Assembly: GCA_030149175.1 (NCBI GenBank)
Contig: JASBSA010000128.1
Coordinates: 1-33,688, forward strand
Length of the DNA: 33,688 bases
Reading direction: 5' to 3'
DNA from: Winogradskyella sp.
Lineage (GTDB): Bacteria > Bacteroidota > Bacteroidia > Flavobacteriales > Flavobacteriaceae
Shown: in pieces, positions 2,842-15,609 of the stretch
Position numbering within the stretch: position 1 is the stretch's first letter
Layout: each line of letters begins with the position of its first letter
Notes under the pieces: model-generated
Seen by the model: the letters and a program-made list of their open reading frames with translations, nothing else
Databases searched by the model: none
What the model was told of the DNA's origin: nothing
Position numbers and translations under genes: made by a program

Positions 2842-4122
2842 ATGGCAGTAGACTTACTACTTGGATTACAATGGGGAGATGAAGGCAAAGGGAAAATTGT
2901 CGATGTATTCACCTCTAAATACGATATTATTGCGCGCTTTCAAGGTGGCCCAAATGCTGGTCACACTTTAGTTTTTAATGGGAGAAAGCACGTGTTACAT
3001 ACTATACCTTCTGGGATTTTTCACGACAATACTGTAAATTTAGTTGGTAACGGTGTAGTTATAGATCCTGTGATTTTTAAAAAGGAATTAGACAAATTAG
3101 AAGAGCAAAATGTTGATTATAAAACATCCCTCTACATCTCGCGTAAGGCACATATTATTTTACCTACGCATCGCTTATTGGATGCTGCGAGCGAAGCTTC
3201 AAAAGGGAAAGCAAAAATAGGTTCTACGCTTAAAGGTATTGGTCCAACTTATATGGACAAAACTGGTAGAAATGGTATTAGAGTTGGTGATATTGAATTA
3301 GCGGATTGGAAGGAAAAATATAGAGCTTTAGCCGATAAGCACGAAGCTATGATAGATTTCTACAATGTTGATATTCAATACGATTTAAAGGAGCTAGAAG
3401 CAGACTTTTTCAATGCTATCGAGACACTTAAAACCTTAAAGTTTATAGACTCCGAAGAATACGTCCACCAAGCACAACAATCTGGTAAAACGATTTTAGC
3501 AGAAGGTGCTCAAGGATCGCTTTTAGATATCGATTTTGGAACGTATCCTTTTGTAACATCATCTAATACAACAGCCGCTGGTGCATGTACAGGTTTAGGT
3601 GTGGCACCAAATCAAATTGGAGATGTCTTTGGTATTTTTAAAGCCTATACGACTCGTGTTGGCTCTGGTCCTTTTCCAACGGAATTGTTTGATGAGGATG
3701 GTGAAACTATGGGACGTGTTGGCCATGAGTTTGGCGCCACAACAGGTCGCCCAAGACGTTGTGGTTGGCTAGATTTAGTAGCTTTACGATATGCATGCCA
3801 AGTTAATGGAGTTACCCAATTAATTATGATGAAAGGTGATGTACTTTCTGGTTTTAAGACCTTAAAAGTGTGTACAGCTTACAAGTACAAAGGCGAAACA
3901 ATCACACACCTTCCATATAATATTGAAGAAGAAAACGTCACTCCTATTTATACAGAAGTAAAAGGTTGGTCAGAAGATTTAACAGGCATGACGGAAGCGT
4001 CGCAGTTACCTGAGACCTTCAATGATTATGTTACATTTTTAGAAAAGGAGCTTAACATTCCTATTACAATAGTATCTGTAGGTCCTGACCGTAAGCAGAC
4101 TATCGTCAGAAAAACGGTATAA
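2842..4122 (+). CDS. purA: adenylosuccinate synthetase
   Basis: GLQWGDEGKGKIVD, GGPNAGHTLV, GPTYMDKTGRNGIRVGD, GTYPFVTSSNTTAAGACTGLG, TTGRPRRCGWLDLVALRYA. Confidence 0.98.
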   Translation: MAVDLLLGLQWGDEGKGKIVDVFTSKYDIIARFQGGPNAGHTLVFNGRKHVLHTIPSGIFHDNTVNLVGNGVVIDPVIFKKELDKLEEQNVDYKTSLYISRKAHIILPTHRLLDAASEASKGKAKIGSTLKGIGPTYMDKTGRNGIRVGDIELADWKEKYRALADKHEAMIDFYNVDIQYDLKELEADFFNAIETLKTLKFIDSEEYVHQAQQSGKTILAEGAQGSLLDIDFGTYPFVTSSNTTAAGACTGLGVAPNQIGDVFGIFKAYTTRVGSGPFPTELFDEDGETMGRVGHEFGATTGRPRRCGWLDLVALRYACQVNGVTQLIMMKGDVLSGFKTLKVCTAYKYKGETITHLPYNIEEENVTPIYTEVKGWSEDLTGMTEASQLPETFNDYVTFLEKELNIPITIVSVGPDRKQTIVRKTV

Positions 4123-14214: not shown

Positions 14215-14988
14215 TTAAAGTGACTTAGCCTCTTCCCAAAAAACATCCATTTCAGATAAGGTCATATCTTTTAGTTGCTTATTTAATTCTTTGGATTTAC
14301 GCTCTAGATACTGAAAGCGTTTTATAAATTTTTTATTGGTGCGCTCTAAAGCATTTTCAGGATTCACTTTAAGAAAACGAGCATAGTTTATCATTGAGAA
14401 TAGCACATCACCAAATTCACTTTCTATCCTATCTTGATTACCTTTAGCTATTTCTGATTTTAATTCTGCTAGCTCCTCCTCTACTTTTTCAAAAACTTGC
14501 TCTGGTTGTTCCCAATCAAAACCTACACCTGCTACTTTGTCTTGTATACGGTTTGCTTTTACCATGGCTGGTAAACTTTTGGGCACACCTTCAAGAACAC
14601 TTTTCTTACCTTCTTTAAGTTTAAGTTGCTCCCAATTACGCTTTACGTCTTCCTCATTCTCAACCTTTACATCACTATAAATGTGAGGATGACGATCTAT
14701 AAGTTTATCACAGATGCTATTACATACATCTGCGATATCAAAATTGTTTGTTTCACTTCCTATTTTAGAATAGAAAACTATGTGCAACAGCACATCACCC
14801 AACTCTTTTTTTACCTCATCTAAGTCATTTTCTAAAATAGCATCACCAAGCTCATAAACCTCTTCTATGGTGAGATGACGCAACGACTCCATAGTTTGCT
14901 TTTTATCCCATGGACATTGCTCGCGCAACTCGTCCATAATAACAAGCAAACGCTCAAAGGCTTTTAGTTGGGCAGTTTTATCCGACAT
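14215..14988 (-). CDS. mazG: nucleoside triphosphate pyrophosphohydrolase MazG
   Basis: LREQCPWDKKQTMESLRHLTIEEVYELGDAI, KKELGDVLLHIVFYSKIG, VGFDWEQPEQVFEKVEEELAEL, EFGDVLFSMINYARFL. Confidence 0.96.
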   Translation of the reverse strand: MSDKTAQLKAFERLLVIMDELREQCPWDKKQTMESLRHLTIEEVYELGDAILENDLDEVKKELGDVLLHIVFYSKIGSETNNFDIADVCNSICDKLIDRHPHIYSDVKVENEEDVKRNWEQLKLKEGKKSVLEGVPKSLPAMVKANRIQDKVAGVGFDWEQPEQVFEKVEEELAELKSEIAKGNQDRIESEFGDVLFSMINYARFLKVNPENALERTNKKFIKRFQYLERKSKELNKQLKDMTLSEMDVFWEEAKSL

Positions 14989-15013
14989 TGTTAATTTATA
15001 GCTATATAAAATT

Positions 15014-15065
15014 CGTCAATTCGAGTGAATTTCATGATTGAAATGAATGAAATTTTTATCGAGAA
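15014..15065 (+). repeat. REP-like element copy A: CGTCAATTCGAGTGA-[hairpin ATTTCAT..ATGAAAT]-TATCGAGAA
   Basis: Termini match copy B (15090-15133) in inverted orientation; internal stem 15029-15035 / 15047-15053. Confidence 0.75.
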
Positions 15066-15089
15066 TAAGAATTTCTAACTTTGAAAATG

Positions 15090-15133
15090 TTCTCGATATA
15101 ATTCCTCATTCTTCGGAATCACTCGAACTGACG
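15090..15133 (-). repeat. REP-like element copy B (inverted): CGTCAGTTCGAGTGA-[hairpin ATTCC..GGAAT]-TATCGAGAA
   Basis: 14/15 match to the left end and 9/9 match to the right end of copy A, opposite strand; different internal stem. Confidence 0.75.
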
Positions 15134-15140
15134 TCTGTAA

Positions 15141-15569
15141 TTATTCTTCTTCGTCCGAAGCTGTTACTTCTTCTTCAGTTTCAAGAGATTCTAAAAGATT
15201 GTTTTTATGAAGTAAATTGTACCACTGGACCACTTTTTTAATGTCTGATGCATATACACGATCTTCATCATAATCTGGTAAAACTTCGAAGAAATATTCT
15301 TCTAAAGTATCTTTTCCATCTTTATGGCTAATCGATGTTTGTTCGCCATTCTCTTTATCTTTAATCTTCTTAAGTACATCCTTTAAAGGTACTTCTTCTG
15401 TTAAAGTATAAATAGCGATTTCACTTAAGATACTAATGTTACTATGTGCACCTACAGTGATTCTCTTTTTATCTAATAAAGATTGTACAACAGCACCAGT
15501 TCTTGTCTGTGTCACAATTTCATATAATCCTGGCTTACCAGAAATGGCTAAAATTTTATCTAAGCTCAT
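15141..15569 (-). CDS. DUF5606 domain-containing protein
   Basis: MSLDKILAISGKPGLYEIVTQTRTGAVVQSLLDKKRITVGAHSNISILSEIAIYT; location between def and mazG. Confidence 0.85.
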   Translation of the reverse strand: MSLDKILAISGKPGLYEIVTQTRTGAVVQSLLDKKRITVGAHSNISILSEIAIYTLTEEVPLKDVLKKIKDKENGEQTSISHKDGKDTLEEYFFEVLPDYDEDRVYASDIKKVVQWYNLLHKNNLLESLETEEEVTASDEEE

Positions 15570-15584
15570 ATTATTTTTTGATTT

Positions 15585-15609
15585 GTCAGGCTGAGCGCAG
15601 TCGAAGCCT
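15585..15609 (+). repeat. REP-like element GTCAGGCTGAGCGCAGTCGAAGCCT
   Basis: AGGCT..AGCCT stem; this word is familiar as a dispersed Bacteroidota intergenic repeat (not searched); lies in the def-DUF5606 gap. Confidence 0.6.

Follow-up and report, generated by a model that had tools for sequence, protein, structure and literature searches.

The CGTC-tagged REP superfamily was described by Di Nocera, De Gregorio and Rocco (2013; PMC3733652), who list Bacteroidetes among its hosts, including the flavobacterium Gramella forsetii (G. forsetii). According to that paper, the tag often reads TGTC or CCTC, the stem has 8-9 bp with A-T pairs 'almost invariably' at positions 1 and 2 (a typical feature and not an absolute one), the loop has 4-5 nt with listed exceptions, and a 3-nt unpaired tail, mostly CCA, follows. 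The same paper describes dimers that are predominantly arranged with the tags outside (HH) and reports no dedicated transposase, and the authors ask whether RAYTs or other enzymes move these repeats (PMC3733652). A second group of reference is formed by the GTAG REPs and BIMEs with RAYT/TnpA-REP in E. coli and Pseudomonas (PMC2817692, PMC6006769). The element analyzed here shares with them the short tagged hairpins, the inverted pairs, the extragenic location and the many copies, whereas its tag is [CT]GTCA and not GTAG, no Y1 gene adjoins it, and none is detectable in several genomes with high copy numbers.

The inverted pair between DUF5606 and mazG

The window, a stretch of 33,688 nucleotides, belongs to a Winogradskyella MAG of 2.53 Mb in 160 contigs that is 75% complete, and the nearest named relatives of the locus are likewise Winogradskyella. 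The original prediction had placed two inverted REP-like elements here, with ends CGTCAATTCGAGTGA...TATCGAGAA for copy A (15014-15065, plus strand) and CGTCAGTTCGAGTGA...TATCGAGAA for copy B (15133-15090, minus strand). The sequence check found its coordinates, end matches (14/15 and 9/9), interiors (28 and 20 nt) and inner stems all to be correct, and we therefore regard the pair itself as confirmed. The features of the locus are as follows:

14215..14988, minus strand: MazG nucleotide pyrophosphohydrolase, downstream gene (PF03819, E=1.8e-37)
14989..15140, no strand: 152-nt intergenic stretch, made up of the dimer with 7 and 25 nt of flank
15014..15066, plus strand: REP copy A, long type (sequence; covariance-model match 48.1 bits), with tag CGTC, A, outer stem ATTC/GAAT, tandem G.A core CGAG/CGAG and variable inner stem ATTTCAT/ATGAAAT
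15067..15088, no strand: dimer spacer between the outer-stem bases of A and B (alignment)
15089..15133, minus strand: REP copy B, short type (sequence; covariance-model match 52.6 bits; loop class tabulated), with tag CGTC, A, outer stem GTTC/GAAC, core CGAG/CGAG, inner stem ATTCC/GGAAT and loop GA-A-GAA-T-GA
15141..15569, minus strand: DUF5606/DUF6852 protein, upstream gene
15584..15609, plus strand: compact TGTC-tagged REP of canonical CGTC layout (TGTC AGGCT GAG CGCAGT CGA AGCCT), in the next gap, from DUF5606 to the peptide deformylase gene

Both flanking genes lie on the minus strand, the 152-nt gap runs from the DUF5606 stop codon to the mazG start, and copy B begins 7 nt past that stop codon. 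The motifs TTCGAGTGA and TATCGAGAA occur exactly twice each in the window, always inside the two copies (chance mean 0.18 and 0.28, respectively). We found that pairing reaches 1 bp beyond the ends first proposed: the base before TTCGAG pairs with the base after GAGAA, copy A having A-T at this place and copy B having G-C. The single 'mismatch' between the 5' ends of the two copies is therefore a compensated change. Together the two copies form a dimer whose tags face outward (the 'HH' arrangement).

The region as a whole folds far better than shuffled sequences, both as RNA (-41.8 kcal/mol, z -6.3) and as DNA (-27.6, z -6.1), whilst copy A folded alone does no better than its shuffles (z -0.5). 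The folding signal thus stems from the pair and the family and not from the single copy A. A cruciform or RNA of about 120 nt spanning both copies, as originally proposed, is possible by folding energy, but conservation applies to the individual hairpin, which is usually though not invariably part of an inverted pair.

Anatomy, covariation and placement of the element

We aligned 193 copies and obtained the consensus [C/T]GTC A N TTC GAG TG A-stem-loop-stem-T N G TAT CGA GAA N', with CGTCA as the tag in 119 copies and TGTCA in 48. The fixed ends served to find the copies, so their invariance is not evidence, and the weight rests on the variable pairs. The outer N and N' positions both lie outside the search pattern and hence provide an unbiased test; they pair in 188 of the 193 copies, as C-G (88), G-C (85), A-T (9), G-T (4) or T-A (2). 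Inside the outer stem, the facing CGAG stretches form C-G, G.A, A.G and G-C, that is, a tandem G.A core, and this internal loop keeps the same register, with a fixed start of the inner stem, in 186/193 copies.

Inner stems of at least 4 bp are present in 94% of copies, compared with 53% when the 3' halves were shuffled among copies. A non-redundant set of 33 equally long copies has 97.5% of its cells paired and a covariation of 0.447, against 0.112 after shuffling (0/500) and at most 0.157 in slid controls. The inner stem therefore varies through compensatory change, and its pairing is strongly conserved. Copies elsewhere thus bear out the description of the elements as REP-like, with conserved ends and a pairing-conserved middle, and as a selected structured element: their interiors hold complementary stems that pair and covary. 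A common loop class reads GA-x-GNA-y-GA, in which the closing pair x-y is A-T (31 copies) or G-C (26 copies). Very stable DNA mini-hairpins are known that contain tandem G.A pairs and GNA triloops, and together the GNA-like triloops and the tandem G.A core are suggestive of a role as single-stranded DNA.

Compared with the CGTC REPs as presented in PMC3733652, the element has the same unpaired CGTC/TGTC tag, the same A at the first stem position, a mostly intergenic location downstream of genes, and tags-outward inverted dimers, an inverted partner lying on the untagged side in 99/193 copies and on the tagged side in 29/193. It also resembles them in that no transposase gene flanked by the repeats was found, here for the Y1 class at 29 Y1 loci of the genus. 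It differs in that the outer stem is fixed as TTC/GAA with one free pair, and in that the first A has a T opposite it in only 72/193 copies and a C in 81/193. The second stem position is C-G or G-C in 173/193, and the G.A core breaks what would be a continuous stem. Further differences are the second, sequence-free hairpin in place of the 4-5 nt loop, the lack of CCA at the downstream positions and the presence of tandem clusters.

Compact TGTC REPs with the frame tag-A-N4-GAG-loop-CGA-N4'-T co-occur in the same genomes, including the one at 15584-15609 of the window, and bridging forms such as TGTCAGTTCGAGCGGAGTCGAGAACT combine the outer stem of the subfamily with a compact loop. Because the tag, its TGTC variant, the HH dimers and the location at gene ends are shared, and because compact and bridging forms co-occur, we place the element as a variant of the CGTC-tagged superfamily that is not one of the four described families. 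Overlap with a listed family is possible. The marks of the subfamily are the fixed outer stem, the tandem G.A core and the variable second hairpin.

Integron attC sites also combine conserved ends with a middle that varies in sequence but keeps its pairing. The element has a different core sequence, its copies sit between ordinary operon genes, and no cassette array was seen at the loci that carry it. An attC interpretation had been considered for a unidirectional cluster (genome G003) and was dropped, the cluster being an ordinary catabolic operon. Searching Rfam with the window gave no match at the gathering score, the best sub-threshold hit being the microRNA model MIR9481 (26.8 bits against a cut-off of 130), and a known RNA family was thus discarded at that threshold. 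One Rfam Flavo-1 RNA (L164:19385-19465, minus strand, 52.5 bits) has a REP dimer about 20 nt away, and another 20 loci of the element yielded no additional Flavo-1.

Distribution and the same gap in relatives

Further copies proved numerous and not few or absent, and the element is dispersed over the genomes of marine flavobacteria. The genome of the window contains 12-14 exact copies (14 with the pattern TTCGAGTGA-N(5-35)-TCGAGAA), and of 150 candidates scored with the covariance model, about 43 pass E<1e-3 and 50 pass E<0.1. Across the genus, exact copies occur in 62/69 genomes, with 1 to 73 per positive genome. The element is present in 156/400 genomes and 106/237 genera of the family sample. 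In the phylum sample it was found in 10/19 members of the family and in 1/179 Bacteroidota outside it, this sole positive being without a proper stem. A reversed-pattern control returned 0 matches in the genus and two stray ones in the family sample.

The window pair is one instance of a long-short heterodimer with a partly conserved spacer that recurs in several genera; in the alignment, the spacer stretch adjoining copy A is largely conserved in the long-short dimers of other genera.

We then compared the DUF5606-mazG gap between relatives. In a close Winogradskyella MAG (L025) only 3 nt separate the two genes, a near-empty site, whereas Winogradskyella algicola (W. algicola, L026) shares the 152-nt stretch with the window at 96.7% identity. 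The flanking genes of W. algicola are less similar to those of the window (DUF5606 90.2%, mazG 89.3% identical), a contrast that suggests either constraint or recombination at this site. The gap contains another dimer in L035, decayed or collapsed copies in L043, L044 and L066, and a compact REP in L040. In L046 (after position 3426) it holds a copy of the element with additional compact REPs inside its upper hairpin, as though REPs could insert into one another. Empty gaps are not the rule among the orthologous sites: only 22/75 measure at most 10 nt, and those of many other genera span 60-340 nt. Because short gaps are this infrequent, loss in L025 is possible and we claim no ancestral state. 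Among the copies compared, no recent transposition event with clean ends was seen.

Routes of spread and gene context

With a probability of about 0.7, we interpret the window pair as an HH dimer of a flavobacterial CGTC-REP subfamily, that is, of non-autonomous palindromic repeats mobilized in trans. The original prediction had raised a link to a RAYT/IS200-like Y1 transposase, and this link found no support. The genome of the window has a single Y1_Tnp gene, which is RAYT-like (L024:1450-2007, plus strand), and a different REP (CACTCGTTGC..GAGCGCTAGCGAGGG) lies on both sides of it, with repeats at 1110-1154 and 2017-2281. A PF01797 search detected no Y1 gene in several high-copy genomes, including the single-contig assemblies G036 and G278. 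Ten genomes with 20-58 exact copies yielded no credible Y1 gene with PF01797 and then with a profile built from the local Y1 genes. This profile gave nothing at E<=1 in G036, G020, G035, G068, G248, G348 and G391, and only short matches at noise level (E 0.1-0.3) in G278, G377 and G179. The profile does work, since true genes in G029 and G237 were found at E 1e-50 or better. Taken over own, genus and high-copy genomes, these searches led us to reject association with a RAYT as a requirement.

Matches to Y1 of about 500 aa appeared in many high-copy genomes and were set aside as Y1-HemF fusions, which have their own palindromes and are absent from other high-copy genomes. These proteins begin with a Y1 (HUH) transposase domain that continues in frame into the N-terminus of HemF, a coproporphyrinogen III oxidase. 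The ORFs encode about 490-530 aa with no stops and were seen in other genera besides about 20 genomes of Winogradskyella; examples are L152:343-1866 (minus strand), L159:1474-2964 (plus strand) and matches in G029 and G237, with HemF identified by Pfam in two. The L152 gene is flanked by CCTGCAAGGTTT..AAACCTTGTAGG palindromes.

Tentatively, we consider that CGTC-type REPs might spread independently of Y1/RAYT enzymes, through some other protein of the host or of an element that would recognize the single-stranded foot, namely the 5' tag with the tandem G.A core. Such a protein would read the foot, and the sequence of the upper hairpin would therefore be free while its pairing stays. The GNA-like triloops with their covarying closing pair would fit recognition as single-stranded DNA. 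It is unlikely, on the other hand, that these are classical REPs or BIMEs mobilized by a RAYT, that is, by a Y1 HUH transposase of their own genome. Their anatomy of a 5' tag and a hairpin is REP-like, and besides the window's own genome a Y1 gene is found across the genus (32/69 genomes), but that own gene is surrounded by another REP, 0/29 Y1 loci of the genus have the element within about 1.5 kb, and the ten copy-rich genomes are without a credible match. A RAYT that was lost, or that acts from elsewhere, is conceivable.

The position of the copies at genes bears on a different explanation, by which the element would be an immobile cis-acting RNA element or an mRNA 3'-end stabilizer or processing site, selected at many genes. 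Only 8/249 copies fall inside ORFs of at least 150 aa. Singletons lie mostly in sense orientation downstream of genes, many of them 6-16 nt past the stop codon, and between co-directional genes their sense:antisense ratio is 35:4. Part of the sample was drawn from hand-chosen clusters, and the safer figure is hence 20:4 (p=0.0015), counted once per locus and with the paa loci removed. In three Winogradskyella species (L164, L165 and L180) copies of the element stand behind several genes of the phenylacetate (paa) cluster, an operon named by protein resemblance, and the inner hairpin at the same paa position differs between these species.

The sense bias, the clustering behind stop codons, the repeated use in the paa operon and the strong fold as RNA would all suit such an RNA function. 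Several findings speak against it. Dimers are oriented almost symmetrically (35:21, p=0.08), without a clear bias; tandem arrays of copies exist, and species within one genus have anywhere from 0 to 73 copies; a site that is occupied in one species is near-empty in a relative; and no gene class common to the element loci was seen. Tolerated insertion sites can also yield a position bias. We therefore judge an immobile RNA element to be improbable.

Least probable is a MITE of a DDE-type insertion sequence: G278 does have about 24 near-identical dimers in a unit of ~180 bp with inverted repeats ACCCGTTGTGCATTTT (L243-L274), but such outer repeats are confined to G278, the dimers of other genera, including that of the window, being at background, so that a general MITE was rejected, and no ACCCGTTGTGCATTTT pair brackets a gene-sized interval in this single-contig assembly, every pair found spanning about 110-205 bp, which is why no full-length carrier was seen. 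The larger inverted-repeat unit could have carried the dimers passively during the burst in G278.

For the preferred reading, a trans-mobilized CGTC REP, we propose the following course. The layout [C/T]GTC-A-N-TTC-GAG-TG-[variable hairpin]-NG-TAT-CGA-GAA-N' comprises a conserved foot and, above it, a hairpin that is free in sequence and kept in its pairing. The foot consists of the 5' tag, which is unpaired, of a short outer stem with a covarying first pair, and of the tandem G.A core between two fixed pairs. The element may be recognized as a folded single strand via tag and foot. It could then spread as a hairpin or dimer through a putative enzyme supplied in trans. At the locus studied here, the copy just behind the stop codon is probably transcribed with both genes and would place a hairpin between their cistrons. 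This hairpin could shift the balance of DUF5606 and mazG message.

The subfamily provides a sharp, searchable consensus for the spread of CGTC REPs, an open question since 2013. It also offers high-copy genomes in single contigs that have no detectable Y1 gene, and close relatives in which one and the same site is filled, near-empty or decayed. With this consensus and these genomes and relatives, the spread of CGTC REPs becomes testable.
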